A stretch of DNA of 64,000 nucleotides from Cubamyces lactineus. Lineage: Eukaryota > Basidiomycota > Agaricomycetes > Polyporales > Polyporaceae. A program made the translations under genes and the position numbers. How positions within the stretch are numbered: the stretch's first letter is position 1; each line of letters starts with the position of its first letter. Positions 15,200 through 63,353 of this stretch are shown here, one piece after another. The stretch lies in the NCBI GenBank assembly GCA_022376465.1, contig JACDTU010000002.1, positions 124,001 to 188,000 of the forward strand. The letters are read 5' to 3'. The notes under the pieces were generated by a model. That model saw only the letters and a program-made list of their open reading frames with translations, made no database searches and had not been told where the DNA came from.

Positions 15200-16299
15200 G
15201 CTCGATAATGTAGGGCTTGGCCGGTACGATCGCATTTAAATATTCGCCCGTGCTGGATCCTGACGCCGCGCAGCCTCTGTTCTGATCGCACGCACACGAC
15301 CTGCAACCAAAAACTCTATTCTGAGTCCCCTGCCGCCGCCATTTGTCCATTTCTTACCCTCGCCTCTTCCAATGTACTTGTATTGCAACGTCTGACTGCT
15401 CGTTGATCTCGAAGCTCTTTCCTTACTCGCGTATCTTGTCCTCCGCTCCTTTGTACTCCTCCGAACGTCATGCCTGCTCTCGCCTCGTTTATGCTTGTAC
15501 TTGTAGCCCCGCCCGTTTTGGACATGTTGCTCCGCTCTCTACCTCGTGAATTCGCGTGTATTTGTACCGATGCTCAACCATCCACGTCGCTGGCTACCCA
15601 TTTGCTACCGTTTTGTACCATCAGGTTTCGTTCCTCGTTACGGCCTTGTAACCTCCGGCTGTACGCCCGTGTTATACACTGTGTCTGGTCAACAACCGGC
15701 GAAGGCAGCAGATCAAACTTTCGGCCCTCGAACACATGGCCATCTATATCGTCAAGTTAGTCGTTCTGAGCCCGGAAGTGCAGTTACTATCCACACGGGC
15801 AGAGAATTTTGCAGCCCGGTTCCCTGTGATGGTAATATAGAGCGCGTAGGCAGTCAACGAGTTTACGACGTATGAAATCAGGATCAACGCGGCGATAGGT
15901 CGGTTGAGACCAGCTCCGTCGATGTATGCTCCGCCGCATCTGCGTGCGAGGACGACGTAAGTGCCAAATATCGCGGGCGCATTCCAGTTGAGTGGCTTCT
16001 CGCTGACCGTGTTGCGTGCGGGAACGGGCGCGCCTCGCAAAGAAGTTCGGTTCAAGTGGGCGTGGGATGGACGAGTTCCAGATGACGTGCTGCCTTAACG
16101 CGAGCGGCATAGACGGTTGATCGAAGCCTCGCAAGACCTTCCCGTCGTCTAGAAAACATGCGCGCACGTGAAGCAATGAGGACCATCGTCGAGAAAGTTC
16201 AGCAGATTATAAGACTACTGCCCATGTTCTGAACAATACATCAAATGGTGCGGATGTCATCCTTGCCGGCCCTTGCCATAATAACGCTACAAATTATCT
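15200..16299. other. downstream region of paralog B
   Basis: Positions about 15460-15700 resemble the DNA downstream of paralog C (about 23040-23280), for example GATGCTCAACCATCC here against GATGTTCAACCATCG there, so the duplication reached past the genes. At 15744-16176 the minus strand has a 103-130 codon frame containing a hydrophobic segment (ALILISYVVNSLTAYALYI). It may be a fragment of a membrane protein, but I find no start, splice partner or family. Confidence 0.4.
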
Positions 16300-17246
16300 G
16301 ATGCCTCACACCTCGAGCCCGATGCATTCGGAGGTGATCGGCTCGTCCTGACGAAGGCCTGCTGAGCACAACGGCTCGTTGTTGAACATCGGGCACCGCG
16401 CTGACGCGCCCTCCGACAGCGTCTCATGCAGCCAGTGACAAGCCGTAGTGGTCATCTCTACGCACCACAGGAAGCGCGAGTATCAACTTGAATGAGATGC
16501 GAATGAGGATAGATCCGGCGTGCGCACCCTCCGCTAAAGGGATGTAGTCGGACTCGCAGTGCGGCGTGACATAGTCGTTCTCGCACGTCCACTCATATAC
16601 GCGTACGCGGTCCTTCCCCATAATCTTCCACAGAAGCCTGTTCGGTTCATCAGCACCCAGCTCTATTATGAAGGAAGAGCGACTAAGGAGAATACTGACG
16701 ACTCCCCCGTGCCTTAGTAAGCACCCTTAGAGGGGTGTATGCCCTCACCCATCGACGGCGTTGTTTGCGTGGCGCACGATCAGGAGCGCGCTGCCCTTAA
16801 AGTCTTGACAGCGTGCATAGAGCGTGTTGAGCGAAATGTCATGCTGGTCGAGGCTGTAAAGCAATGTCCAAGATCGAGGTAGACGAGCGCTGCTTGGTGC
16901 TCGCGTAAGCTCTTAGTGCTCGCGTAAGCTCTTAGTGCTCGCGTAAGCCGTCAGCGGCTCACAACGGCCATACGCACATTGGCTTTGTGGGGCGTGGAGG
17001 CCCGGAAAGACGCTCGATATGGACGGAATCGATGACGGAACACTTCAGATGGTAGCGTCTCCTGCCTTCCCCGTCAATGTCATTGAAGTTGTACATGGTT
17101 AACCCGCGAAGATTGCAGAACCTTGAAAGACGAAGTGACACCGTAGTAAAAAGAGGGTAGTCAGCGGGATGTCCTCGGTCATAGTATGACAGAACGCACT
17201 GGCAAGTGGAGCGGAAGAGCGTGCACCTTGTGGGACGCAGGGACAT
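16300..17246 (-). pseudogene. decayed partial copy of OXR1 (TLDc domain)
   Basis: This stretch aligns base for base in long blocks with the intact OXR1 gene at 23374-24105. The TLDc exons correspond to 16300-16880 and the end of OXR1 exon 1 to about 17190-17246. It is not functional: the segment matching GCCCATCCACGCGCCAAAGACGG (23808 onward) has lost about 11 bp, the region between 16880 and 17190 is unrelated or scrambled and contains a 19 bp tandem repeat, and the entire N-terminal part is absent. It lies 3' of paralog B in the same relative position as OXR1 lies 3' of paralog C, which points to duplication of a paralog-plus-OXR1 unit followed by loss of this copy. Confidence 0.85.
16898..16954. 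repeat. 19 bp tandem repeat, three units
   Basis: TGCTCGCGTAAGCTCTTAG occurs at 16898-16916 and 16917-16935, with a third copy at 16936-16954 diverged in its last bases. It sits inside the OXR1 pseudogene where homology to the parent breaks. Confidence 0.85.
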
Positions 17247-19725
17247 GATTATGCCAGTTTTGACAGTGGCGATTGCGGATATAGTGTAATAGTCCGATTA
17301 GCTAGTCGATGGAGATAGGACTGCATTGTGGCTTGCGGAAGGTTGTAGTGCAAGGGTGTGATATGCCTCTCCAGTGAACAGCCCGTACCTGAGGAAGGCT
17401 GAGGAAGGCATGCGGGCACGCCTTAAGATGGTGAGGTGAGATACTGGTTGAATGAAGAGGTACTCCTCGCCTAGAGACCGGTCACCGGAAGCTGCCAACA
17501 TCCAGAGGCGAATTGTCGAACTTGAACTAGAGGCGAGCTGTCAGACTAGCGCCTTCTGGTGGACAAGCCATGTGTTCCAGAGGCGCTGTCACTGTACATT
17601 CATGTGGTTGGTGGCGTTGAACCTACTGAACGGCGGGCTCTGCAAGCACCCCACGTTTCGCCGACGAGCGAAGCGGCTCCTGCGCCGACGCTACAAAGTC
17701 CGGTCATGTTCGCAGGCATGGTGGACATCCGAAGATTCCCTGCATAGCTTGATCTGGCACTGCGACCTAGCCGCTGGACACGTAAGCGCCCCGGCCTTTT
17801 TGTTTTTGTTTGTTGATTTGGAAAAATGTTGTCTAATCCCAAAAAGGATCGTTCAAGTGTTCGCGATGGGTGGACGACTCGTTGCCTCCGTCCGTAGTAC
17901 CGACATCTATGACCCGGTGGGTCGAAAGCCCGCAGCCTCAGAAAGTTTAGGCCTGTGCACATCCTCGCGGCCCAGTACTCCTCGCGCCAGCCTACGCAGA
18001 GTTGTACTGTGAGCCGTGTGCCAGCAAGCACTTCAAGTCCTTATCCAGTGTTAAGTTCGCGCTTCTTTGGAGTCCTCGTCCACACGTTCCTTTACACTCT
18101 ACGCCTTCATGCGGCGGACTCCAGTAGAACTCCACCCGTCGGCGAGTGTCCTTCTCCAGCCACAACTGACACGAGCTGCTGACTGTGTATGCGAGGATCC
18201 AGTAGCGGTCTCAACGCCGACTCCGATTCATTGTCGGCCACGACGTGGATCGTGTCGCAAGCCTGCCGTGTCGTAAATGCCAGGATCATGCCTTCGGCAA
18301 CCATCTCCACAACATAAAAGGTGCCTCTTCCGCACGCGATCCCACGCCGTATCAGTAGCCGTCCCGCACAATATGCGCGGTACGCTGCCACTGTCCGACA
18401 CCTTGACTTTGAGTACATAGACATATCACAGATTAAAGTTGTGACTGCTCGATGGTCGTTGATGGCATCGGTGAGTTGCACTTTGAGTGTTGTATTGATC
18501 CACTCATCCATGTCTTTAAACTCTTTTAGGGCGGTCAATATGCCATCTCAGCCTACTTTCATAGGTGTCCGCTACGCGCCCTCTAGGTCGTACTTCAACG
18601 TGGAGCCGTGCGAATTGTCCTGTGAAAGCATGGCCTGCAAAGTTTACGGCGACCAGCGGTAATGCCTCCGCGTCGGGGCTCGTGCCCATTGAAAAGGCAC
18701 GCCCATGGGTTCGCGAGTGTGTTTGCGCGCGATCCTGTCCGGTTGACTAAGCGCCTTGGCGTAGAGTTACGGTTCCATTCTTTCCGCGCAGCGACTAGCA
18801 CCACTGTGAACGCTTACGATGCACTAAACAACGCCAAGAAACGTGCCCACCAAAACAGGATATCGTATGGTCGGTGAGGGGACTGGATCACTCGCTGGAA
18901 AACGCAGCCCCCAGGGGCTTTGCGTTGAGCGACGACTGACCGGCGCATCTGTCAGAAGCTAGAAGCGGGCTGTCAACAGAATGCCTTGTGGTGGACCAGC
19001 TGCGCTTCATCTCTATACGAGTGTGGTGTATAAGGTTGAGTGGTGTCGACTGTTTACTTGACTAATCCAGGCCGAACATGTACTTCCCTGGAACTGTACG
19101 TAGATTTGCCGCGGGACAACGCCTAGACCCTAGGACGATGGAAGGTCACTACCCGCGGACCACGGAGTGGAACCGTACGCAGTAGTGGTGCGTTCTGTCG
19201 CAGAGTTGTGCTGTGCTCTTAACTTATCAGTGCCGCCAGAAGCTCCGTCGGTCCTTGTCGGTCAGTGGTCAGGTCTTCATGTTGTGGTTGTGAAGATAGA
19301 CTTGGAATTCATCCTATTTTACTGAAGACCACGAACTGCACAATTCTGTACACCTTCGGAACTGCAAAATCTAAGTGCAGGCCGGGCGTCGCAGTCGGGG
19401 GTAGACATCTAGTAAGGAGGGAATATGAAAACCGGCTCTGACTTTGGTCTCTTCGTCAGGGCCGCCGCCAGGCTTGAAGACCTGTTGAGATGCCACCTGA
19501 ATTACCAGTTTCGCGTAAATCACTGACGTCCATCACAGCTCTATCCCCATCATGTCGTTATCACGTCCACCACTGCCCAAAGTAAACGCTGTTACAGGTA
19601 TCCGGTACGGGGACACCATATTATATTCCATCACATGGTGAGCCGCATTGCATTTAACGACTTTTTCACAATAGCTGACGAGATTCGTCCAGCCTGTCGC
19701 AGCGTAGCAGGCGCTTGTTACAGAG
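17247..19725. other. intergenic region before paralog C
   Basis: About 2.5 kb. ORFs of up to 186 codons (17452-18012 plus; 18107-18538 minus) have no recognisable domain. A short motif around CGAGCTGTCAGACTAGCGCC followed by TTCTGGTGGAC (17530-17565) reappears diverged at 18960-18995 and upstream of paralog B, suggesting layered small duplications. No RNA gene or transposon ends seen. Confidence 0.4.
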
Positions 19726-22850: not shown

Positions 22851-23368
22851 AATTCAACAACTCGGTACGTTCGTGCCTGCCAGTGTTTCTTTCTCTGACA
22901 GGCGTTCCTTACCTTTCCCCGCAGATAGTCGGATGGATTATCGCTAACTCGGATAGACTCGTATCACTGCGATCTTCAACAATCTCTTGCATCATGGACC
23001 CGTTCAGTATATATGGATTGCCACGTCTGTACCCCTTTGCTCCGGTCCTCCATGTTGTCAAAGCCAGAAAATCATGCCCATCATGCTCCTCTTCTCGTCA
23101 TAGAAGTTCAGCTATCATGCCGTCCCAGTCTTCTTGCTACCTTGGCCCGTCTGTACAGTTCCCCCCGTCTTGCGTACTCATGTATATCATGCCGATGTTC
23201 AACCATCGTACCCTTTCCATGCGCCCGGCTCTTCCTTGTTTACGATCGTCAATGTAACAACACCGGTGGTTTATCCGCAAACAATGCTGCCTACGCTATG
23301 TGCCACACTGATACACCGGATAGCGAAAACTTCCCCTTAGCAGTCGGCTGTCACAAGGACGCTACGGC
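22851..23368. other. 3' region shared by convergent paralog C and OXR1
   Basis: About 520 bp between two converging stop codons, presumably both 3' UTRs and terminators. ORFs here (for example 23013-23519) are shadows of OXR1 or of UTR sequence. It resembles the DNA downstream of paralog B. Confidence 0.5.
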
Positions 23369-25348
23369 CTATCCAATGCCCCACACTTCAAGCCCGACGC
23401 ATTCAAAGGTGACCGTCTCGCCCTGGCGCGGGCCCGGAGAGCACAACGGCTCGTTGTCGAACGTCGGGCACCGCGCTGACGAGCCGTCCGACAGTGTTTC
23501 GTCCAGCCATAAGCCGTAGTGACCATCCCTACACATTCCAAGAATCGTGAGTATCAACTAGATGTGAGCGGGAATAAATCCGGCGTGCGCACCCTCCACC
23601 AAATGAGATGTAGTCGGACTCGCAGAGCGCGACGTAGTCGTTCTTGCCCGTCCATTTATATACGCGTACGCGGTCCTTCGCGACGAGCTGCCACAGAAAC
23701 CTGTTCCGTTCATTAGCACCCAGCTCTGCTAATATGGGAGAAGCCAAGAAAATCACTGACGACTCCCCGGTGCCGTAGTAGGCGCCCTTGGAGGGGTGTA
23801 TGCCCTCGCCCATCCACGCGCCAAAGACGGCGTTGTTCGCGTCGCGCACGATCAGGAGCGCGCTGCCTTTGAAGTCTTGACAGCGCGCGTAGAGTGTATT
23901 GAGCGAAATGCCGTGCTGGTCGAGGCTGTAAAGCAATGTCCACGATCGAGGTAAACGGGCAAGCGCCGGGAAGAACGGTCGCAGCTATCCAATAAAATGT
24001 CAGAATCCTTAATACCTCGCAAACGAAGAACCCAAGTCGCACGCACCATATCCGCAATCTCCACCGTCAAAATCGGTGTGGTCATGTCCTTGCGGCCCAC
24101 GAGGCGCACGCTCTTCCGCTCCACCTGTGTCTTGTCGTACTCAAAGCCCTTGTTCCACTGCCTGTCGCCCGTGAAGCCTGGGGCACCTGATGGCGGCACG
24201 AACGTGTGCGACGCGAATGGTGTCCCGTGCGTGATCGCCGCATCCAAACCTGGCGCGGGGCCCTCTGCGAAAGAGCCCGAGACAGTTGCCGCGCGCGAGT
24301 GCGGTGCGGACCGCGAGAAGCCGGCGAGGTGCGATGCTGCCGCGGCGACCACGGGCGGTAATCGCGAGGTGGACGGGTCGTCCGTATGTGAACGGCTGGT
24401 CGAGGTGGAGGCGGAGGCGGATGTGGAGGCTGAGAGCGTAGTGCGAGAGCTTGAGGGGCGGATCGTGGAGGTGAGAAGGGATGAGACGATGCGTGAGGGA
24501 AAAGATGGAGAGGAGAAGTACGACTGCGTGCGCTGAACTTCTGGAGGTGATATGCGCGTCGGAGAGGAGGGCGGCAACGATGGGGACCGGATATGCGCAA
24601 AGGTCGAGGCGTGCTGTTCAATGTTTGCGTGTGACCGGGACTCCCGCTCGTGATCGGTCGCACCCGAGTCAGGTCTGGGAGAGTCGAAGTCTATCAGGGT
24701 ATCTTCGGGAATTGAATGGGGTTGTGCAGGCTGAGCGTCAGATCCGTGACTTGTTCTTGTGGATATAGATGTTGACGTCGGGAGGACAGGAGGAACAAGA
24801 GACTTCATACTAGGTGCGTCAGACGGCGAGCCGAGATCAATAAGCGAGTCGCCCGGAGACAATGTCTCGCTCGCGTATTGCACAGGTTGCGGAGTAGAAG
24901 TTCCCGATGCATGGCCTTTGCTCGTCGTACCTTGTAGCCAGTAGAGGGGGTCGTCCTCATGCTGCAACAGCTCGTCGAGCACCTCACGTCGCTTCTTCTC
25001 CGACGCGGCCCTGGCATCCTCCCCGAACTTGCCAAAGAACCCCTGAGTTTGCTGCAGCGGGGAGAAGGCAGGCTTCCCGTCTTCGTCGCCCAGTTTTAGC
25101 GGGTCCTCGGACGCTGATACGGATACGAACGCCCCGAAGTCGGACTCTGTCGACTCCGTGCGTACATGGCGTGCCGGGCGGTTCTGCCCAGGCTCTGGTG
25201 TATGTGTGGGGGATGCGCGAGGCGTTGGAGGAGAGAACAGTGTAGCAAACACATCGTCCTTGTCTCTCTTGCCCTCCGTGTGTCGCGTTCCAGGCAGGGG
25301 TATGAGCGGAGGAATCGGGATGGGCGATTGAGCACTCGTGCCCTCCAT
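23369..25348 (-). CDS. OXR1: oxidation resistance protein 1 (TLDc domain)
   Basis: Four exons: 25348-24047, 23984-23761, 23700-23593, 23528-23369; 597 residues. The C-terminal ~200 residues are a clear TLDc domain: LVGRKDMTTPILTVEIADM, PRSWTLLYSLDQHGISLNTL, GSALLIVRDANNAVFGA, KGAYYGTGESFLW, VRVYKWTGKNDY, GHYGLWLDE and the terminal TFECVGLEVWGIG. Fungal OXR1 proteins protect against oxidative stress, and TLDc proteins bind and disassemble the V-ATPase (family knowledge). The N-terminal ~390 residues are Ser/Pro-rich and probably disordered, with acidic stretches (SLIDLG, TLIDFDSP) and a conserved-looking block EVLDELLQHEDDPLYWL. The start is the Met that opens the long frame; no better upstream start is seen. 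A decayed copy of the TLDc half lies at 16300-17246. Confidence 0.92.
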
Positions 25349-51688: not shown

Positions 51689-52084
51689 TCACCAATAGTA
51701 TTCGCAATTGTTGAGCCCGTCCGGACCCTGGAGACCACGAGCGGGGTCGTCGAGAGTGGCGTCCGCGAGTTTGATGGGGGCCTGTACTCCCCATGGTGGG
51801 TTAGCGCGCGCGTCCCTTGTCGCTTCCTCCAGTGAACGCGGATAAAACTGCACGTTGTTTGTCAGGGCCTGGCCATATGGGGGCGGCGGTATGACCGGGG
51901 CTTCTTCCAGTTGCGCAGGTGTTGTGGTCGCAGGCCTCGTCGCGGGTTCGTAGGACAGCGAGTGCGTTCGGAATTGAACGTCTGCAAATGGAATCCGAGG
52001 AACCGGCGCTGAGGGGCCGGGGTTGGCGGTGGCTGGACCAGCTACCTCTGGAGCATAGGGCGTCGGTGGTCGTGCCTGCCGCAT
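51689..52084 (-). CDS. element 1 post-pol ORF 5: proline-rich protein with second PPxY
   Basis: 131 residues, proline/alanine-rich, with VIPPPPYGQA (a second PPxY motif) and a charged C-terminus ending NNCEYYW just before the polypurine tract. A competing frame (52244-51801) starts at an ATGA overlap with ORF 4 but has a less protein-like composition. Element 2 has a zinc-knuckle ORF in this slot instead; I see no zinc ligands here. Whether it is translated is uncertain. Confidence 0.45.
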   Translation of the reverse strand: MRQARPPTPYAPEVAGPATANPGPSAPVPRIPFADVQFRTHSLSYEPATRPATTTPAQLEEAPVIPPPPYGQALTNNVQFYPRSLEEATRDARANPPWGVQAPIKLADATLDDPARGLQGPDGLNNCEYYW

Positions 52085-52240
52085 TGACGTGCGTCGCGCT
52101 ACGCGAGATTCGACTCCTTGTTCGAGTCGTCGCTGGATTATTGTCGCTTCTCGTGCTCGCCGGGTGTAGTTGCGGTGGTCGCGCGGTAAATACGTGTAGT
52201 CCTCCCACGAAGATCCAGGGATAGTGTGGTACGCAGCGGG

Positions 52241-52990
52241 TCATTCGCCGGACGGAGGTTCGAGCAACGGAAGGAGATTGCAGGTATACGGATGGTGCCG
52301 AGCGGTGAATGCGGGGGATTCCATATGCTGAATGAGGCTTCGTTGCCCTCGACCATTGCGGAGACGGAATCGGCTGACAGACGCCTCAACGGAACGGGCG
52401 TACTCGGTGACTTCCTGTGCTGATTCGAGGATACGCTCGGCATCATCTTCGTAGAGGTGGGTGATGTCGGAGACTTCCTTTCTTATGTCGTTGACAACCT
52501 CTTCGATATGGTCCAGCGCTCCTGCAACAGTCTTCATGCTCCTTATCATCCTGCCGAGTTGGCCGCGCGCGTCTTCCCTGATCAGAGACGCCGACCCTCC
52601 CAGGTTGACCAGATGCCCGCCGATGTGGCCGAACTCCCGCGCGTCGTTGAACATGTCCCGATATCTGGCGAGCGGGTTGACTAGCTTGGGGTCGGCGTGC
52701 ACCGCATTGATGAGGGGTCCTGGATCCGTGAGGAGAGCATTGACGAGTCGTCGTCCTTCTCGCGAATTGGGTTGGTCGGCGAGAGAGTCATTCGTAGCGA
52801 GCGACTCTAGGTCGGATGTTTCATCCGGTTCCTCGGGGTCGCTTTCCGCTTCGTCTGTCGCGTCGTCGTACGGAGGAGGAGGAGCCGCAGGAGGGGGAAT
52901 GTTTTCTTGGTCGCTCGGGTTTAACGACTGTGCAGAGGCGACCGAGAAACTTTCCGGGGTTAGGTTCTCCGCAAACTCGAAGTTAGGCAT
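52241..52990 (-). CDS. element 1 post-pol ORF 4: PPxY-bearing acidic/helical protein
   Basis: 249 residues. The N-terminal third is acidic and proline-rich, with a shared block (SDQENIPPPA) and a PPxY motif (APPPPYDD) followed by Asp/Glu/Ser repeats. The C-terminal two thirds are helical with heptad character (REGRRLVNALLTDPGPLINA, IRSMKTVAGALDHIEEVVND, ERILESAQEVTEYARSVEAS). The element 2 homolog at 61835-62644 shares DQEN, PPxY, LLT.P.P.INA and the long helical tail. PPxY motifs bind WW domains of Nedd4/Rsp5 ubiquitin ligases and serve as late domains in budding retroviruses; that role here is inference. Its stop overlaps the next ATG as ATGA. Confidence 0.7.
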   Translation of the reverse strand: MPNFEFAENLTPESFSVASAQSLNPSDQENIPPPAAPPPPYDDATDEAESDPEEPDETSDLESLATNDSLADQPNSREGRRLVNALLTDPGPLINAVHADPKLVNPLARYRDMFNDAREFGHIGGHLVNLGGSASLIREDARGQLGRMIRSMKTVAGALDHIEEVVNDIRKEVSDITHLYEDDAERILESAQEVTEYARSVEASVSRFRLRNGRGQRSLIQHMESPAFTARHHPYTCNLLPLLEPPSGE

Positions 52991-53117
52991 GGTTGGGGTA
53001 GGTGGGAAGGATGTCGGCAGGGATGTCGCGGTGTTCGATGGTGAATTCGATGATACGAAGGTAGAGGATGGCGTAGGCGAGGATCCAGAGGAGGGCGAGT
53101 AGGAAGGTGATGGTCAT
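52983..53117 (-). CDS. element 1 post-pol ORF 3: single-pass microprotein with EHRD motif
   Basis: 44 residues: one membrane segment (TITFLLALLWILAYAILYL) followed by RIIEFTIEHRDIPADILP. Element 2 encodes a 62-residue counterpart whose helix is followed by NILEVALEHRDPLDPV, so the helix-E(H)RD-acidic/proline layout is conserved. Its stop codon overlaps the start of the next ORF (ATGCCTAA on the minus strand), a coupling arrangement. Too short for standard gene finders, but supported by conservation between two diverged elements. Confidence 0.6.
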   Translation of the reverse strand: MTITFLLALLWILAYAILYLRIIEFTIEHRDIPADILPTYPNHA

Positions 53118-53131
53118 GCACACGACAACGA

Positions 53132-53356
53132 TCATAGGGTTCGGTCGTCGTCAAACTCGGTGGGGCGAGCGGGGATTCTCACTGGAAGTGGGGGCGATTG
53201 GTTGTTGGTGTGATGGAATTCGTGTTCGAGGGAGTCGTGGGTGAGGCACAATGCGACGCAAAGGATTGGGAGGCAAATGGTAGCTGCGATGGTGGCGACG
53301 ATGGTTGCGGGGACGGCGACAATGACGTAAGCAAATTGTCCGATGAAATGGGGCAT
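53132..53356 (-). CDS. element 1 post-pol ORF 2: small membrane protein
   Basis: 74 residues; the ATG directly follows the stop of ORF 1 with no gap. The N-terminal half is hydrophobic (QFAYVIVAVPATIVATIAAT, ICLPILCVALCL), followed by a His/Glu-rich polar tail (DSLEHEFHHTNN) and a proline-rich end. Probably one or two membrane passes. No counterpart was recognised in element 2, so it may be specific to this lineage. Confidence 0.55.
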   Translation of the reverse strand: MPHFIGQFAYVIVAVPATIVATIAATICLPILCVALCLTHDSLEHEFHHTNNQSPPLPVRIPARPTEFDDDRTL

Positions 53357-53590
53357 TCACCAGGTGCTGGAGGGGTCGCGGTTCTTGAGTGTTCGCTCTG
53401 CGATGCGAGTGTGAAGCTCGGAGAGGTTGAAGTGGAGGAAGGTGAGGATGGAGGCAAGGACAAGGGTGCAGTAGAGGGCAAAGATAAGTGTGGGGGATGG
53501 TTGGTCTCGGAGGGTGAAGTGGAGGAAGGCAAGTGTGGCGGAAACGAGGGCAGCGCAGTAGAGGATGTGGAGTGATTCGAGGGAGGGCAT
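53357..53590 (-). CDS. element 1 post-pol ORF 1: small two-helix membrane protein
   Basis: 77 residues, beginning 10 bp after the pol stop. It contains an internal duplication: HILYCAALVSATLAFLHFTL and then FALYCTLVLASILTFLHFNL, each a membrane-helix-length unit with the pattern LYC..L..A..L.FLHF.L. Element 2 has one copy of the same unit in the same place (FAIYCLTLLAITLLFLWYIL), so this is a shared gene with a helix duplication here. The C-terminus is polar (RTLKNRDPSSTW). No similarity to known envelope proteins was recognised. The role is unknown; membrane attachment is likely. Confidence 0.65.
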   Translation of the reverse strand: MPSLESLHILYCAALVSATLAFLHFTLRDQPSPTLIFALYCTLVLASILTFLHFNLSELHTRIAERTLKNRDPSSTW

Positions 53591-55660: not shown

Positions 55661-56095
55661 TGTTACGACGCTCACTGTGTCACGGTCACGAAGTTTCCTT
55701 TTCCTTCCTCCTTGCGCTCCCACTATGCCACGTCATCTTTTCCCACACCACGTCATCCTTTCCCGTGCCACGTCATCCTCGTTCCCACCGATTCCACGGT
55801 TGTTGTATTCCTAGCCTATCCTGTTTTGCCACGTCATCGCCACATCACCTGTATTCCCAGCCCTGACTCTACGTAGTTATACTGGACTCTCACGGTACGT
55901 GGCGCCTACGTGGCGCTGACGTGTCTATGCCTCCTTTCCTGTATTTAAGACCGGAGGATCCACTCGGGATCCTCAGCTCGACCTGGTTATCCATTGCCTA
56001 TTCCTCTGAACCTCTACTCGACTCGAACTACTGGAGACCTCTGGTCCGATCCCTAGGACGTCGCTTGCTGTGACCGATCTAGGCTCGTCGTAACA
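55661..56095 (+). repeat. 5' LTR of element 2
   Basis: 435 bp, TGTTACGACG...CGTCGTAACA, ends forming the TG...CA inverted repeat. Four copies of CCACGTCATC are at 55728, 55748, 55768 (20 bp spacing) and 55829; ACGTCA is the bZIP/ATF-CREB half site. GTATTTAAGA at 55941 is a probable TATA box, followed by a perfect 8 bp inverted repeat GAGGATCC/GGATCCTC (55955-55962, 55967-55974) that would sit near the start of the RNA. Confidence 0.93.
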
Positions 56096-56189
56096 TTAGG
56101 TCGAGCTCACCAGAACCCGTCGATCTACCCAGATCTCGACACACGACACCCGCTCAAGACAGAGCGGCCCCGAACCGAACAACACGGCG

Positions 56190-57629
56190 TTGATACCGAA
56201 AGAATTTGCGGTTGACAAGGAAGCCAAGCTAGTCTACTACGAAGGGCAACAAGTCTTCTGGAAGAACAAGTCCTGGCACTTCACCGAAGTCCCTCTCACC
56301 TGGCGGAACTGCCTTGACATCGACCCCAACTACCGAAGACGTTACCGCGAAATATCACTTGGAGACGAACTTCCGGAGGAACCAGCGGCCACCCCGGAAC
56401 CGAGAACAGAACCAGAACAGCCTTCCCCGGTAGACTTCACTACTCCCAGACCAGCTCAAGCGGAGATACTCGAGGAGAGTGAACCAGAAAGCGAGAACGC
56501 TACAAGAACTTCGAACAACGACCACGACCCGGAGGGAAGCGAAGCCGCACCAGAACCCGTAGGGAAGACCCCTCAAGAAGAATCGAACCGAACTGCGAAC
56601 GAACCCGAAGGCCGAACCGAAGCCACGATGGCTGAAGAAAAGACGAACGAGATCAAGCTCAAGATGCCCCCAGAGTTCTCAGGGAAGCGGGGCGAAGTAG
56701 TGGAGTGGTTGCAGAAATGCTCCCTCTACCTCACGATGAACAAGAAGACCTACGCCACCGACGAAATGAAGATCGTCTTCTGCCTTATGCTGATGAACGG
56801 AGGCACCGCCGGAACCTGGGCCCGCACCTTCATTGAAGACGTAGAACGGCAGGCAGCCGACCAGAACAAGAACCGAAGACCAGGCGAAGAACGTATCGAA
56901 CCCAACTACGGAACATGGGACGACTTCAAGAAGCAACTACTGGAAGCATTCAACGACATCGACCAGAAGGCCAGCGCCCGTGTACTGCTGCGAAACCTGA
57001 AGCAAGGAAGCAAGAAAGTCGAAGACTACATCGCCGAGTTCAAGTCGATCATCTCGCGATGCGGAATCACAGAGTTCGAAGTCATTGCCGACTTCTTCTA
57101 TGCTGGACTCAACCGTCCCCTTCGAGAGAAGATCTTCAGGATGTACCCCCTACCGAAGGATGCCAGCGAACTCTACCTCCGAGCCTCCACTCTCGAACAG
57201 CAGTATCACCTGGGAAGAGCATACGACGGGAAGACCTCGACCTTCCGACCTACGTACAAGCCGTACAGACCCCGACCGCAAGAACGCGACCCTGACGCCA
57301 TGGATGTCGACAAGATGACGACCGAAGAACGTGAGAAGCACTACCGAGAAGGACGATGCTTCAATTGCCACCAGATAGGGCATCTAGCGCGGCAGTGCCC
57401 CAACAGAAGAACCAACGACCGTAAGAAGACGAAGCCTGCTGCCAAGGCCCGCATCACCGAGGTCGAAGAAGACGAGAGCGACGATGATGAAGACATCAAA
57501 TCCATCGACAGCCAAGCGGCTGACAAGAAGCAGCTTATCGCAGCAAGGATCCGTACCGCTCTGAAGGGGCTAGAAGAAGACCAAGACGCGAAGGAAATCC
57601 TCGCAAGCTTCTCCAACGAGGGTTTTTGA
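56190..57629 (+). CDS. element 2 gag (capsid and nucleocapsid)
   Basis: The first ATG of the frame is at 56628 (MAEEKTNEIKLKMPPEFSGK), giving 333 residues. The frame is open for a further 146 codons upstream without any ATG (from a TTG at 56190), with protein-like content (YYEGQQVFWKNKSWHF, then a Glu/Pro-rich stretch), so a non-AUG start or a lost ATG is possible. Capsid region: FSGKRGEVVEWLQKC, GTAGTWARTFIEDVE, KKVEDYIAEFKSIISR, ADFFYAGLNRPLREKI. Nucleocapsid zinc knuckle CFNCHQIGHLARQC (CX2CX4HX4C). The acidic tail ends in EGF with stop TGA at 57627-57629. Gag forms the virus-like particle that packages the element RNA. Confidence 0.88.
   Translation: MIPKEFAVDKEAKLVYYEGQQVFWKNKSWHFTEVPLTWRNCLDIDPNYRRRYREISLGDELPEEPAATPEPRTEPEQPSPVDFTTPRPAQAEILEESEPESENATRTSNNDHDPEGSEAAPEPVGKTPQEESNRTANEPEGRTEATMAEEKTNEIKLKMPPEFSGKRGEVVEWLQKCSLYLTMNKKTYATDEMKIVFCLMLMNGGTAGTWARTFIEDVERQAADQNKNRRPGEERIEPNYGTWDDFKKQLLEAFNDIDQKASARVLLRNLKQGSKKVEDYIAEFKSIISRCGITEFEVIADFFYAGLNRPLREKIFRMYPLPKDASELYLRASTLEQQYHLGRAYDGKTSTFRPTYKPYRPRPQERDPDAMDVDKMTTEEREKHYREGRCFNCHQIGHLARQCPNRRTNDRKKTKPAAKARITEVEEDESDDDEDIKSIDSQAADKKQLIAARIRTALKGLEEDQDAKEILASFSNEGF
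57620..57626 (+). promoter_or_regulatory. -1 ribosomal frameshift site at the gag-pol junction
   Basis: The heptamer G-GGT-TTT (GGGTTTT) fits the canonical X-XXY-YYZ slippery sequence in the gag frame. It is followed at once by the gag stop TGA. Shifting back by one base continues into TTG AAG AAC of pol, which is open and lacks its own ATG at the junction. This is a strong candidate signal for Gag-Pol fusion; a downstream pseudoknot was not checked. Confidence 0.75.
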
Positions 57630-60600
57630 AGAACCGGCGTGTCTCGACGTCACGACTGCGTACTAAGGTCCGCCGTGTAATAGTAGCGCAGACTTCTCGA
57701 CAGTCTATGAGAATTCTGTTATCTATCCACGCGGACCTAAGCGTCGAAACGAAAGCCCTCATCGACACGGGAGCGGGAGAAGTATTCATGGACCACAGGT
57801 TTGCGAAAGAGCACAACTTCCCGCTCAAATCGCTGAAAGCCCCGATCCGAGTATACAACGCTGACGGAACCAGGAATGAAGCAGGCAATATCAAGAAATG
57901 CGCAGTTCTTGAAATTGAAGCCGGGCGCCACCGACACATTGTACGGTTCTTGATCACGTCGCTCGGGAAGGAGCCAATCATCCTAGGACTGCCATGGCTA
58001 CAGCGTGTCAACGCCAACATTGACTTCACGAAAGGAACCCTCGACATCGACCCCGCTCGGGTAAACCGAACGATCGTGGAGCATCTGCGCGCAATGTGGT
58101 TCCCAGATCAAGACCCCTTCACCGGAAGACCCAAGCCAGTCGAAGAAGAACCGGACGAAGAAACAGATGAAGAAGACGAAGACGTGACCGAGGAAGCATC
58201 AACCCAAGAACCAATCTACGAGAACATCGAACGAGTTACCCTCTCCGACGTGCACCCGGAAGAAGAACCCGACGACCAAGATCTGCTGATAGCTTATCTT
58301 CGCGGAGAACACGAAGCCATGATAGCACCGCACGCGACAGAATGGCACGGAGATATGCCTCGACCCGGATCCCCCCTCACCACGGAACACGACTACGAAC
58401 CCACGAAGATTGGACCTGGACCCACCATCGGAAGAATCCGACGAGCCCCACAAGGACTTCGATTTGCAATTGCAGCCAACGTCTGGATCCGAGCAAAGGT
58501 CAACCCCGCAATGGCACTCGCACAACAGCACCAAGCACAGGAAGAGAAGAAGACTTTCGAAGAGATGCTCCCCGAACCGTACCGAGGATATGCCGCCATC
58601 TTTGAAAAGAAGGCGTCCGAACGATTCCCACCATCACGACCCTGGGACCTGGCCATTGAACTCAAGGAAGGCTTTACCCCGAAGGACTTCAAGCGATATC
58701 AACTCACGCCCAAGGAACTCGAAGCCGAGGAAGAATTCATCCGGGAGAACCTACGAAAAGGCTACATCCGACCCTCGAACTCGCCGATGGCATCCCCATT
58801 CTTTTTCGTCGGCAAGAAGGACGGAACACTACGACCCTGCCAAGATTATCGATACCTCAACGAAGGAACCGTCCCCAACAAGTACCCACTACCGCTCATA
58901 TCGGAATTGGTCGACAAGCTGCGCGGAGCGAAGGTTTTCTCCAAACTGGACCTCCGATCGGGATACAACAACGTCCGTATCAAGGACGGTGATCAATGGA
59001 AGGCCGCCTTCAGAACCAGCAAAGGGCTATACGAACCAATGGTCATGTTCTTTGGACTGCGGAACTCCCCCTCGGCTTTCCAAGCTATGATGAACGTGAT
59101 CTTCGCAGACATGATCGACGAAGGATGGGTAGTGATTTACATGGACGACATACTGATCTTTTCGGCAGACCTGGACGAACACCGAAGAAGGACCTTACGT
59201 GTCCTGGAACGACTCAAAGAACACGACCTCTACCTCAAGCTAGAGAAGTGCATATTTGACGCACCAGAAGTGGAGTATCTTGGAATGATCATCAGCGAGA
59301 ACCGGATCTCCATGGACCCTATCAAGATAAAGGGAATACTCGACTGGCCAGAACCGACAACCGTCAAGGACGTTCGATCATTCCTTGGATTCGGCAACTT
59401 TTACCGACGATTCATCGACCACTTCTCGGAGATCGCGCGACCGCTCAACGCGCTCACCAAGAAAGATGCCAAATGGGAATGGACAACGGAATGCCAGAAG
59501 GCCTTCGACATGCTGAAGCAACGATTCGCGACGGCCCCCGTGCTGCAAATGCCCGACGTTAGCAAACCCTTTGTCGTCGAATCCGACGCCTCGCAATGGG
59601 CCACAGGGGCAGTACTCCGGCAATGAGACGCCAACGGCGACCTGCACCCGTGCGCGTACCTATCCGAAGGATTCACCGAAGCAGAACGGAACTACGAAAT
59701 CTACGACCGGGAACTACTTGGCATCATTCGGGCCCTGAAGGCCTGGCGACACTACCTTGAAGGATCAGGGCACCCAGTTACAATCCTATCCGACCACAAG
59801 AACCTCACCTACTGGCGCAACCCGCAACAGCTGAACAGACGACAAGCACGATGGGCCCTCTTCCTCTCCCAGTTCGACATCCAACTCGTACACACCCACG
59901 GCACGGCAATGGTACAATCGGATGCGCTATCCCGAAGACCCGATCACCGACAAGGATCAGAAGACGACAATACTGAACGAACCATGCTACCCAACAACCT
60001 CTTCGTATGGCTAGTAGACACCTGACTGGCACCAAGATTCCGACACCTGGCCACGCAAGACCGACTCTTTTGCAACGCACTTGCCGCCATCCGACACGAC
60101 GGACCACCCCCAATCAGAAGTGCACTCACCGATTGGCAAGAACGAGATGGCTTAATCTTCTACAAGAACCGATGCTACGTACCGGCCGACGAAGCTCTGC
60201 GACGAGACCTGATCAGTCAACACCACGACTCCCCGGCAGCCGGACACCCTGGGAAATTCAAGACTCTGGAACTGATACGACGGTCATACTGGTGGCCCAG
60301 CATGTATGCCATGGTATCCCGATACGTCGAAGGCTGTGCTACATGCCAGCAGAACAAGCCAAACACACACCCGACCACCCCGCCCCCACAACCAATCCCC
60401 GCTGACGATGTTACTCGGCCATTCCAGAATGTCACAATGGATCTCATCACCGATCTCCCCGAATCCCACGGCTACGATAGTATTCTGGTCATGGTCGACC
60501 ATGGCCTTACGAAGGGGGTGATCTTCGCACCATGCAAGAAGACGATCGATGCAATCAGCACAGCGGCGCTCTACCACCGGCACGTCTATCGACGCTTCGG

Positions 60601-61474
60601 ACTACCCAGCAAGGTCATATCCGACAGAGGACCACAGTTTGTGTCCAACGTCACCCGCGAACTAGGGAAACTCCTGGGCATCACACTCTCCCCATCCACT
60701 GCCTACCACCCGCAAACCGACGGACAAACCGAACGCGTGAATCAAGAACTGGAAGTCTACCTCAGAATATTCTGCAAAGGTCGACCGGACGAATGGGCAG
60801 AACACCTCATTGATGCCGAAGTTGCACACAACCAACGGATCCATTCGGCACGAAATGCATCACCCTTCTACCTCATGATGGGGTATGAACCGACGCTGAT
60901 TCCCATCGCATACCCCAAGACCAACGCCCCGACAGTACAAGAACGGCTGGCAAACCTCCAGAAGGCCAGGGACGAAGCCCTAGCAGCTCACGAACTAGCC
61001 CGACACGTCATGAGTGACAGATTCAAGGGAAAGTTCGTCCAATTCAAGAAGGGACAGAGGGTCTGGCTCGAAGGGAAGAACCTCAACCTCGCCTACGCAT
61101 CCCGGAAACTTGCACCAAAACGGGAAGGGCCCTTTGTCATCACCGAGGTCCTCGGACCCGTGACCTATCGGCTGGAGCTGCCGAAACACTGGAAGGTACA
61201 CCCCGTGTTCCACGCGTGCTTCCTCACCCCATACAAGGAAAACGACACCCACGGACCGAACTACACGAGGCCACCACCTGACCTTATCGACGGAGAAGAA
61301 GAATATGAGGTCGAAGCGATCGTCGGACACAAGACCACACGAGGCGGAATCCGCTACCAAATCAAGTGGAAAGGCTACTCCAGCGCCGAGAACACATGGG
61401 AACCCGAGTCCGCTCTAATTCCGAACGCCAAAGAAATCCTCCAACGGTATAAAAGGGCGAAGAAGCTGCTGTAA
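57626..61474 (+). pseudogene. element 2 pol: protease, RT, RNase H, integrase, chromodomain; two in-frame TGA
   Basis: One frame from the gag overlap to TAA at 61472-61474 (about 1282 codons), interrupted by TGA at 59624-59626 and 60023-60025. Protease ALIDTGAGEVF (about residue 45). RT: KYPLPLISELVDKL, FSKLDLRSGYNN, catalytic VIYMDDILIF, YLGMIIS. RNase [28 protein letters not shown]. Integrase: zinc motif from HHD through CATCQQ, and core MDLITDLP, ISDRGPQFVSN, TDGQTERVNQELE. Chromodomain: EEEYEVEAIVGHK, YQIKWKGYSSAENTWEPES. The first TGA stands where element 1 has CGC Arg-type sequence (RQRDIN), just inside RNase H; the second lies before the integrase. Without readthrough no integrase is made, so the copy may have moved in trans. 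Confidence 0.9.
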
Positions 61475-61480
61475 TCTGCA

Positions 61481-61639
61481 ATGCTCTCCCTCGCCATCCT
61501 CTTCGCCATCTACTGCCTCACCCTCCTCGCTATCACCCTCCTCTTTCTCTGGTATATCCTCCGCGACCTCTTCAACCGCATCATCGAGCACACTCTCCAT
61601 AGCTGTGACTACCCATCTCGATCAGCGTGGGGATTGTGA
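61481..61639 (+). CDS. element 2 post-pol ORF 1: single-pass membrane microprotein
   Basis: 52 residues, ATG 6 bp after the pol stop. One long membrane helix (LSLAILFAIYCLTLLAITLL, FLWYIL) followed by RDLFNRIIEHTLHSC. The pattern (A)IYC..LLA..LLFL matches both halves of the duplicated element 1 protein. Too short for normal gene callers; supported by position and by conservation between the two elements. Confidence 0.6.
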   Translation: MLSLAILFAIYCLTLLAITLLFLWYILRDLFNRIIEHTLHSCDYPSRSAWGL

Positions 61640-61644
61640 AGCCT

Positions 61645-61833
61645 ATGATCATCGCGCTCTTCACCTGCATGACCCTCGGCTACCTCCTTGCCCTTGCCTT
61701 CATCGCCACTCACCTGCGCCTCGCCATCAACATCCTCGAAGTTGCTCTCGAACACCGTGACCCTCTCGACCCCGTAAACGACAAGCTTGACCAGGCCGAC
61801 CGTACCCTCAACAACTCCAGCTGGGACGAGTAG
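61645..61833 (+). CDS. element 2 post-pol ORF 2: membrane microprotein with EHRD motif
   Basis: 62 residues, starting 5 bp after ORF 1. Hydrophobic N-terminus (IIALFTCMTLGYLLALAFIA), then RLAINILEVALEHRDPLDPV and a polar Asp/Asn-rich tail ending SSWDE. The helix followed by (I/L)E...EHRD.P is shared with the 44-residue protein of element 1 (52983-53117). Stop TAG at 61831, and the next ATG begins 1 bp later. Confidence 0.62.
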   Translation: MIIALFTCMTLGYLLALAFIATHLRLAINILEVALEHRDPLDPVNDKLDQADRTLNNSSWDE

Positions 61834-61834
61834 A

Positions 61835-62644
61835 ATGGGCCGCCTCCTCTATAGCACCCAAGTCGCTGACGACAATGCAAGCGACCAGGAAAACCAACAG
61901 CCGCTACCCATTCCTCCCCCACTCGCCAGACGCCTCTCGTCCCCCCCACCGGAATACACCTCTAGGTCACCATCGCCCGCCTCCTCGACGTCGGACCTCA
62001 GCACGGTTGGTGTCGAAGACTCTCATCTGGTAGACCACTCCCGGCACCCCGATGTCAACCAGTTGCTCCGTGCGCTCCTCACCAACCCTATCCCAGTCAT
62101 CAATGCCACCGAGCGAGGCTTGCAGTACTTCCTTAGAGAATATCGATGCCTCTACAATGAGCAACGGGAACTGGACGCACTGGAAGGGAACCTTGTTGAC
62201 GCAGCTGACATCGCAGAGGACGCTCTAGACGCTCATCATGAGGCGTTTGGTGAAGAAGAGGAGCAATGGCAAGTCTCGGATTACGACATCGCAGAACGGC
62301 AGGCGCGCGCCCTCGAAAACGTCGGGCACCATGCCCACGAGTTACGGAGGTTGGCAAGACACTCTTTGAACACCACTCGACGGCTCGCCCGGACTACGCG
62401 CACGTGGAGGAACTTCCTCATACAAACATTCGAACTCCCCGCATTCCGTGCAAGGATGGCGCCACTGGCCTCGGTCATCAACGACGCGGCCCCACCTCCA
62501 GGAGAACTCCCAGCTGCGGCAAGAAGAGTGCCCGGCGAAGCCCGACGCCAAGGGACCTATCTGCCCTTGTTCCACACCAGAGTCTCCGCAGGAAGCCGTC
62601 GGCCCCGTGATCCATCCCCCGACGAGCGTAACGTAAGAGCTTGA
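61835..62644 (+). CDS. element 2 post-pol ORF 3: PPxY-bearing helical protein
   Basis: 269 residues, starting at the Met of MGRLLYSTQVADDNAS. Shared block SDQEN, proline-rich segment with SSPPPEYTS (PPEY fits PPxY), a Ser-rich linker, then LLRALLTNPIPVINATERGL, which matches LLTDPGPLINA of element 1, and a long helical region rich in Glu/His/Arg (AEDALDAHHEAFGEEEEQW, ARALENVGHHAHELRRLARH). It has no transmembrane segment of its own. It could be an adaptor between the membrane microproteins and host WW-domain ubiquitin ligases, by analogy with viral late domains; this is inference from the motif and the gene order. Confidence 0.72.
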   Translation: MGRLLYSTQVADDNASDQENQQPLPIPPPLARRLSSPPPEYTSRSPSPASSTSDLSTVGVEDSHLVDHSRHPDVNQLLRALLTNPIPVINATERGLQYFLREYRCLYNEQRELDALEGNLVDAADIAEDALDAHHEAFGEEEEQWQVSDYDIAERQARALENVGHHAHELRRLARHSLNTTRRLARTTRTWRNFLIQTFELPAFRARMAPLASVINDAAPPPGELPAAARRVPGEARRQGTYLPLFHTRVSAGSRRPRDPSPDERNVRA

Positions 62645-62665
62645 AGAGACACCTCGCCCGCCCCA

Positions 62666-62869
62666 ATGGACGCTTCGCCAGCCCGACCTGAGTCCCCGCC
62701 GTCCCTCCACCCTATTGGCCGCAGCTGCCTAGTCTGTGGGTCGCCCGATCACGAGTACCTGCGGTGCCAAGACTGGCGATGTGTCTGGTGTCGCGCCACC
62801 GCCCCTGGCCATCACCCGTGGGAGTGCCCTCTGCGCCCAGAAGACATGGATGAGCGGTTCACGAGTTGA
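62666..62869 (+). CDS. element 2 post-pol ORF 4: double zinc-knuckle protein
   Basis: 67 residues. CLVCGSPDHEYLRC is an exact CX2CX4HX4C retroviral-type zinc knuckle, and CVWCRATAPGHHPWEC is a second, slightly wider CX2C...H...C unit. It resembles a free-standing nucleocapsid domain placed at the 3' end of the element, in addition to the knuckle in gag. Predicted to bind nucleic acid. No counterpart seen in element 1. Ends 38 bp before the polypurine tract. Confidence 0.7.
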   Translation: MDASPARPESPPSLHPIGRSCLVCGSPDHEYLRCQDWRCVWCRATAPGHHPWECPLRPEDMDERFTS

Positions 62870-62918
62870 GCTGGATACTCCGCTGATGGAACAGCGTAGA
62901 AGCATACGAAGGGGGTAA

Positions 62919-63353
62919 TGTTACGACGCTCACTGTGTCACGGTCACGAAGTTTCCTTTTCCTTCCTCCTTGCGCTCCCACTATGCCACGTCATCTTTTC
63001 CCACACCACGTCATCCTTTCCCGTGCCACGTCATCCTCGTTCCCACCGATTCCACGGTTGTTGTATTCCTAGCCTATCCTGTTTTGCCACGTCATCGCCA
63101 CATCACCTGTATTCCCAGCCCTGACTCTACGTAGTTATACTGGACTCTCACGGTACGTGGCGCCTACGTGGCGCTGACGTGTCTATGCCTCCTTTCCTGT
63201 ATTTAAGACCGGAGGATCCACTCGGGATCCTCAGCTCGACCTGGTTATCCATTGCCTATTCCTCTGAACCTCTACTCGACTCGAACTACTGGAGACCTCT
63301 GGTCCGATCCCTAGGACGTCGCTTGCTGTGACCGATCTAGGCTCGTCGTAACA
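62919..63353 (+). repeat. 3' LTR of element 2
   Basis: 435 bp, same length and, by eye, same sequence as the 5' LTR (55661-56095), including the four CCACGTCATC motifs, the TATA-like GTATTTAAGA and the GGATCC inverted repeat. Preceded by the polypurine tract and followed by the TTCAG target duplication. Confidence 0.93.

Follow-up and report, generated by a model that had tools for sequence, protein, structure and literature searches.

The 64,000-nucleotide stretch of Cubamyces lactineus DNA analysed here, called the window throughout, contains a long terminal repeat (LTR) retrotransposon, element 2, a recently inserted Ty3/gypsy chromovirus that carries a gene cassette behind its pol gene, at positions 61481-62869. 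This post-pol cassette is a selected module in a fixed place behind the integrase, under purifying selection with ratios of nonsynonymous to synonymous polymorphism (pN/pS) of 0.07-0.39, and is best read as an accessory, operon-like module of the chromovirus. The sequence features of its products tentatively suggest, with a probability that we put somewhat below even, that the cassette acts in trans as an adaptor, which would bring a host Rsp5/NEDD4 ubiquitin ligase to membranes in the service of particle trafficking or exit and would itself evade ubiquitin.

The cassette of element 2 and its close relatives, designated family A, consists of three open reading frames (ORFs) of 52, 62 and 344 amino acids, which follow pol and each other at spacings of 6, 5 and 1 nt. 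In the window copy ORF1 is located at 61481-61639 and ORF2 at 61645-61833, both on the forward strand, followed on the same strand by an N-terminal part of ORF3 at 61835-62644, 269 amino acids long up to a premature stop, and a C-terminal part at 62666-62869. The original prediction, made from the window alone, had the coordinates, the order and the gaps of 6, 5, 1 and 21 bp right: pol ends at 61474, the ORFs have ATG starts and the 3′ LTR starts at 62919. Its four ORFs between pol and the LTR do exist as open frames in this copy, but not as four genes. What had appeared to be a separate zinc-knuckle protein is the end of ORF3, its start being an internal methionine: the frame from 61835 is continuous with it in other copies, and the 344-residue frame is free of stops in 42 of the 44 host-genome matches, out of 87, that span at least 343 residues, and the two exceptions include the window copy. 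A separate zinc-knuckle gene is thereby ruled out. Two other arrangements are not favoured, namely fusion of the ORFs by short introns, because the homologies to the related family B begin near each methionine and extend towards each stop, and readthrough of the pol stop into ORF1, because that stop varies between copies and the 10-nt spacing in family B is out of frame.

In the genome to which the window belongs (36.3 Mb in 43 contigs) 106 of 318 integrase candidates were scored, and the counts of genome matches are lower bounds. Family A accounts for 49 integrase matches that cover most of the query at 94-100% identity, together with some partial ones; 17 matches at 83-88% identity belong mostly to family B, represented in the window by element 1, and 33 at 52% identity form family C. 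The placement of the cassette was assessed with 60 of 87 family-A and 23 of 80 family-B cassette matches, other-family matches and small fragments being left out, against the 73 of the 106 integrase matches that lie outside family C. A listed integrase is present upstream on the same strand for 48 of the 60 family-A matches, 43 of them at exactly 364 bp, and for 14 of the 23 family-B matches, 10 of them at 617 bp. The end of pol is there in all three of the 12 family-A misses that were inspected; two of these have integrase running to the edge of the stretch, and in the third only the last 27 integrase residues precede the cassette. The consistent slot behind a chromoviral integrase that had been anticipated is therefore real. 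Three further elements were inspected for the slot, two of which are Copia elements by translation and the third a Gypsy element.

Comparisons among copies drew on 66 stretches together with elements 1 and 2, of which 42, element 2 included, match the family-A cassette. The pN/pS values are based on 31 gapless copies, with truncated, gapped or divergent ones left out (L011, L015, L027, L033, L035, L038, L039, L040, L061, L063 and L074), while motifs were counted in 34 A-type copies, namely the 31 plus L035, L039 and L063. L009, in which the cassette is interrupted, gave no cassette match, and the family-A copy L041 was left out, a neighbouring family-C integrase having been picked there. For family B, 15 stretches matched (element 1 included), six and four of which were used for pN/pS and nine for motif counts.

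Across the 31 family-A copies, pN/pS equals 0.09, 0.39 and 0.11 in ORF1, ORF2 and ORF3, respectively, as opposed to 3.10 and 3.63, 0.75 and 0.75, and 1.70 and 2.36 when the same ORFs are read in shifted frames; ORF2 gives the weakest contrast, since its shifted frames reach only 0.75 against 0.39. The divergent pair L018-L039 yields 0.11, 0.13 and 0.16 for the three ORFs, and within ORF3 the sub-regions give 0.14, 0.16 and 0.20, with 0.20 for the knuckle alone and a synonymous divergence (dS) that is not computable for the linker. The first three ORFs of family B have values of 0.07, 0.32 and 0.15 in six copies, and ORF4 has 0.16 in four unbroken copies against 1.54 and 2.16 in the shifted frames; another value for ORF4, 0.63, is an artefact of the aligner, which drops stop symbols. 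The original prediction of a module kept by selection is supported, and neither of the two outcomes named as counting against it was obtained: other elements do carry these ORFs, and substitutions between copies do show codon bias. The same ratios refute the explanation that the cassette represents unselected open frames in GC-rich DNA, which can practically be dismissed. While GC-rich DNA is generally poor in stop codons and ORF3 has 62% GC, codon-level selection is evident in both families, the gene order is conserved, and the open run of 398 codons in the cassette is reached by none of 500 dinucleotide-block shuffles. In the comparison of family A with family B, the cassette gives ratios of 0.33-0.70, from alignments that are short or saturated, compared with 0.06 for the integrase, and the integrases are 85% identical in amino acid sequence whereas the cassette homologues are 35-52% identical. 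The cassette is constrained yet diverging faster than the integrase.

A homologous module had also been noted in element 1, which belongs to the sister family B, and here the homology holds although the two modules are not identical: element 1 has homologues of all three family-A ORFs together with another transmembrane (TM) protein, and its cassette lacks a knuckle. The four ORFs, with spacings of 10, 0, -4 and -8 nt from pol onwards, are located on the reverse strand of the window. ORF1 (53357-53590, 77 residues, two TM segments) corresponds in its second half to family-A ORF1 (z 15.2, 0 of 300 shuffles), ORF2 (53132-53356, 74 residues, one TM segment) has no family-A counterpart that could be found, and ORF3 (52983-53135, 50 residues, one TM segment) corresponds to family-A ORF2 (z 12.5, 0 of 300 shuffles). 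The frame of ORF4 (51692-52990), which encodes 433-434 residues in unbroken copies and has one stop here, corresponds to family-A ORF3 (z 28.2 against 100 shuffles). The latter two proteins are about 31% identical, and in a nine-sequence alignment of both families the SDQEN and PPPxY blocks are invariant; the ORF4 protein has a PPPY motif near both of its ends, and the knuckle is absent from family B in this alignment.

The ORF1 and ORF2 products of family A each display one hydrophobic peak on the Kyte-Doolittle (KD) scale, beginning at residue 2-5, and would be single-pass membrane microproteins, as originally predicted, with one TM segment each as computed on the near-identical copy L018. 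In element 2 these segments comprise residues ~5-23 of ORF1, which has no lysine, and ~2-20 of ORF2, which has an EHRD tail in common with family-B ORF3, while ORF3 has no hydrophobic segment (maximum KD19 0.71). Products of 52, 62 and 344 residues do not amount to an Env protein with its long glycoprotein, signal peptide, ectodomain and TM anchor, and the cassette is not an envelope; the lack of a glycoprotein and the membrane-plus-adaptor character that had been proposed are both upheld. It is also highly improbable that ORF1 and ORF2 substitute for an envelope by acting as fusogens, in the manner of the fusion-associated small transmembrane (FAST)-type sORF2 microproteins of insect MDG1-group elements, and so allow direct passage from cell to cell. 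A precedent for small TM proteins in env-less Metaviridae, located downstream of pol in some Lepidoptera, is given in passages of PMC11952523, and family-A ORF1 and ORF2 likewise have a single TM segment in a short protein. However, the TM segment begins at residue 2-5, which leaves almost no ectodomain, the proteins start with MLSL and MIIA and have no MGxxxS/T motif, and fungal cells, as is generally known, are walled apart and already fuse by anastomosis. The missing myristoylation motif is not decisive on its own, as it is also missing from two of six Drosophila sORF2s in the part of PMC11952523 that describes them.

The ORF3 protein contains a PPxY motif in 33 of the 34 A-type copies, in the form PPPEY in element 2, and a C-X2-C-X4-H-X4-C knuckle from residue 298 followed by a second, expanded knuckle, which by pattern are likewise found in 33 of the 34; the motif and both knuckles are present in the window copy, as had been predicted, although Pfam zf-CCHC gives no match for ORF3. 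All nine family-B copies examined have two PPPY motifs, a number reached by 1.6-1.7% of shuffled B proteins. P(S/T)AP motifs in four of the nine and YPxnL motifs in eight of the nine are suggestive only, shuffled B proteins having them in ~7% and ~32% of cases, respectively, with the three classes of motif co-occurring in 0.3-0.5%. Neither PPxY nor P(T/S)AP is found in the gag of the element or in the two parts of pol that were read. In an AlphaFold2 model based on nine sequences, ORF3 is predicted to have a low-confidence N-terminus, read as a disordered arm, that contains the PPxY, a confident helical part at residues ~64-230 with two helices of about 50 residues each that would form a hairpin, and a poorly predicted C-terminus; the model of the B protein has the same order of helices at low confidence.

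Database comparisons add little to the identification of these proteins. No Pfam family matches the cassette above the cut-off and no gag family does at E 1, no PDB sequence matches at E 1, and fold searches, which are no test of absence, gave nothing significant, with BAR-type hairpins recurring only at E 0.15 or worse. Protein searches, each of which scored only ~8000 candidates, returned four relatives with ORF3 and the A/B alignment, three from ENA and the Trametes cubensis hypothetical protein ONZ51_g12383, and none with family-B ORF4, while viral contigs yielded no relatives in a search that may omit records near the genome of the window. Among the genome matches listed, there is no host relative of ORF3 or ORF4 at E 1e-3, as the weakest matches in the list of each family belong to the other family.

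The knuckles raise the question of whether ORF3 is mainly a Gag accessory, that is, a second nucleocapsid-like RNA-binding protein or RNA chaperone, with another or minor role for the PPxY and the TM proteins. The canonical knuckle and the second knuckle in 33 of 34 A-type copies agree with such a role, as does the constraint on the knuckle (pN/pS 0.20 over all A pairs, 0.06 and 0.20 in two divergent pairs). Still, it appears quite improbable: family B has no knuckle at all but has retained and doubled the PPxY, the similarity of ORF3 to the Gag of the element itself is not above that of shuffled sequences (its scores of 46 and 59 stay below the best shuffles, 54 and 61), and the two long helices of the model would be unlike a capsid domain as generally known.

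Next, the ORF3 protein is strikingly poor in lysine. In copy L018 it has no lysine and 41 arginines, compared with 37 and 38 in gag, 43 and 53 in the first part of pol and 26 and 25 in the integrase (Fisher P 2e-9 to 8e-9 against gag and pol), gag and pol consisting of lysine to 6.5-7.7%. About seven lysines would be expected in ORF3 from base composition at the codon positions, whereas gag and the integrase exceed the lysine number predicted from composition (37 against 28 and 26 against 18). Of the 31 copies, 26 have no lysine in ORF3 and five have one, and the whole cassette of 458 residues has one lysine in 25 copies, two in five and three in one; the divergent cassette of L039 has none in 461 residues. 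Family B is less extreme, with two to four lysines in the 433-434 residues of ORF4, where ~12 are expected for copy L055, and five in the 635 residues of the whole L055 cassette. P0003 and P0004, two partial relatives from the databases, have one lysine each. Lysine variants in ORF3 make up five of 49 single-copy variants and none of nine shared ones, where ~0.9 would be expected, which agrees with selection against lysine but does not show it. The family-A cassette is a lysine desert, which is new here together with the motif-free gag and an element in which an A-type integrase is followed by a divergent cassette.

These features would fit a mechanism in which ORF1 and ORF2 are embedded in a membrane of the host, their tails facing the cytosol, and tether ORF3 to it, the PPxY of ORF3 binds the WW domains of a host NEDD4/Rsp5-type ligase, and the knuckle or the helices bind Gag or the RNA of the element. 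The module would thereby supply in trans the late domain that the Gag is missing; ubiquitin would be placed on Gag or on neighbouring host proteins, and the endosomal sorting complexes required for transport (ESCRT) or endosomal membranes would be recruited for the trafficking or release of particles, while the absence of lysines would shield the module from the ligase that it recruits. A coupled translation by termination and reinitiation, from a pol-containing or subgenomic mRNA, is suggested by the short-short-long order of the genes and their spacings of 0-10 nt or small overlaps. The host genome has a locus at C5:1087550-1089410 in which HECT pieces come after three WW domains. Passages of PMC2958808 describe how a Gag devoid of lysine buds by means of PPxY, with the ubiquitin residing on proteins that act in trans, yeast Rsp5 with a Gag-targeting domain is reported to stimulate HIV-1 release (PMC2940739), and according to PMC6874086 the Z protein of lymphocytic choriomeningitis virus (LCMV) buds in a PPXY-dependent manner that is served by NEDD4 ligases, although Z is not directly ubiquitinated. 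A point that weighs against the proposed adaptor comes from the same lysine-free Gag budding test, in which a chimera with the HECT domain of Rsp5 was only marginally active (PMC2958808, in the part describing the test).

The motif, the lack of lysine and the TM segments also fit an adaptor directed at the host, which would act outside the particle and turn the Rsp5/NEDD4 ligase against a membrane or silencing factor of the host by degradation or endocytosis, in the way of the PPxY-bearing membrane adaptors of yeast. The yeast membrane protein Sna3p binds Rsp5p through its PPXY (PMC2171029), lysine deserts are frequent among proteins of the ubiquitin system (PMC10169902), and the cassettes outpace the integrase in the divergence of the two families, as host-facing genes may. 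This alternative is nevertheless rather unlikely in our estimate, though not far-fetched: no host target is known, no arms race is apparent from pN/pS, which is low within families, and double knuckles like that of family A serve to bind nucleic acid in Gag. As to the outcome of ligase recruitment, particle exit and intracellular traffic taken together, which may have close to an even chance, are favoured over the removal of a host protein, which is considerably less probable.

The element L039 (G000:C39:140200-143800) joins a family-A integrase to a strongly divergent cassette. Relative to L018, dS is 0.04 in the first half of the integrase and 0.17 in the second, and rises to 0.47, 0.77 and 1.70 in ORF1 to ORF3; nucleotide identity, taken in steps of 100 columns, lies at 93-100% across the integrase, with 88% in its last stretch, 82-88% in ORF1-ORF2 and 48-74% in ORF3, so that the fall is stepwise rather than sharp. 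A template switch near the pol/cassette border likely produced this one element, as such a rise in dS is not expected from selection on the protein. By eye, the L039 ORF3 resembles the Trametes cubensis protein P0003 in the alignment. A wider model, which at present seems doubtful, would infer that the late-domain function has moved off Gag to a lysine-free, membrane-anchored module that captures Rsp5 and ESCRT, leading to export of particles in vesicles and, in a fungus bounded by walls, to an element potentially transmissible from cell to cell without an envelope, with cassettes swapped by recombination near the pol/cassette border like a retroviral env. Fungal LTR retrotransposons are as a rule regarded as gag-pol elements that stay within the cell; a selected module of several genes, for membrane microproteins and a candidate recruiter of a ubiquitin ligase, would mean that some of them carry retrovirus-like accessory functions without an envelope, with a bearing on the gain, exchange and loss of exit functions among retroelements. 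The lysine-free design makes the prediction a sharp one, namely that the ligase is recruited and its mark escaped.

The remainder of element 2 is that of a Ty3/gypsy chromovirus, with Pfam matches to protease, RVT_1, RT_RNaseH_2, rve and Chromo, LTRs and a target duplication, and all its parts lie on the forward strand. The 5′ LTR (55661-56095, 435 bp) has no mismatches to the 3′ LTR (62919-63353); the former directly follows the 5-bp target duplication TTCAG, and the latter is preceded by a purine tract and followed by TTCAG. The gag frame (56190-57629) matches Retrotrans_gag, has one CCHC knuckle and no PPxY, P(T/S)AP or YPxnL, and is listed from a TTG, with no ATG there in the window copy. 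It overlaps pol in the -1 frame at 57620-57629 over the run GGGTTTTTGA, a candidate -1 frameshift site. The first open part of pol (57626-59626) encodes the protease, the reverse transcriptase and the start of RNase H up to a premature stop and has one YPLPL and no PPxY; the end of pol (60302-61474 from the listed ATG to the stop, the open frame beginning further upstream) encodes the integrase, SH3_Tf2-1 and the chromodomain. The LTRs of the element (55661-63353) are identical despite the two premature stops, one in pol and one in ORF3; the element has probably moved with proteins from other copies, or its LTRs have been converted. Elsewhere in the window are diverged direct repeats (80-89%) at 16274-16888 and 23349-23960, about 7.06 kb apart, and, in addition to them, an inverted pair at 17203-17286 and 24044-24127.

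Other post-pol ORFs are present in the genome. Family C (L065-L074, e.g. L074:341-1630) has one unrelated ORF of ~430 residues, 66-67 nt past the pol stop, which is stop-free in the best 55 of 100 matches, has dN/dS of 0.03-0.10 in three pairs and no Pfam match at E 1; kinship with ORF3 or ORF4 was rejected (scores of 47 and 55, where the best shuffles reach 65 and 63). Its protein is not depleted in lysine, with 12 in 430 residues where ~10 are expected. In L074 a fragment of the family-A cassette lies downstream of the family-C element, ~1.9-2.6 kb after the integrase. The Gypsy element at L076:1076-2471 has a 461-residue sense ORF after pol and an overlapping antisense ORF of 177 residues, which recalls the ORFs that Retand elements of plants have in antisense after pol (PMC11963269).

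Among known systems, no lysine-free PPxY scaffold with TM microgenes was found in the open-access literature searched, although several systems share parts of the design. Additional post-pol ORFs with TM or coiled-coil segments and unproven function occur as the ORF3 types of bdelloid rotifers and the ENV-like genes of plant Sireviruses, but these are single ORFs, and the passages concerned (PMC5408684, PMC3414828) describe no such scaffold with microgenes. A survey from 2010, which covers fungal chromoviruses and one element from a spikemoss (PMC2864245), lists an "add. ORF" of unknown function in a figure legend; the part concerned gives neither its sequence features nor its bearer, and it may be the same module or a different one. 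Passages of "LTR Retrotransposons in Fungi" (PMC3248453) contain no post-pol gene. The sORF2/FAST-like microproteins of the MDG1 group are similarly short single-TM proteins of env-less Ty3/gypsy elements, sometimes after pol, but possess an N-terminal ectodomain and often also a myristoylation motif and a polybasic patch, with no PPxY partner mentioned in the passages of PMC11952523. The LTR elements aside, the mammarenavirus Z is also comparable. In these enveloped RNA viruses it is a small zinc-binding matrix protein of the RING type and is not known to have TM partners. Set beside the cassette by description only, the LCMV Z shares with it the PPXY and, according to PMC6874086, would need NEDD4-family ligases without ubiquitination of its own. 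Finally, the nearest working analogy is provided by the late domains of retroviral Gag proteins (PPxY, PSAP, YPxnL), which would here be split off onto separate post-pol proteins. Zinc knuckles are found in the Gags of many elements. The Gag of element 2 is itself lysine-rich and without the motifs, and no sequence or fold relation of the cassette to retroviral Gag is shown; the points in common are the PPxY and the very few lysines, and the nearest single case is the lysine-poor Gag of prototype foamy virus (PMC2958808).
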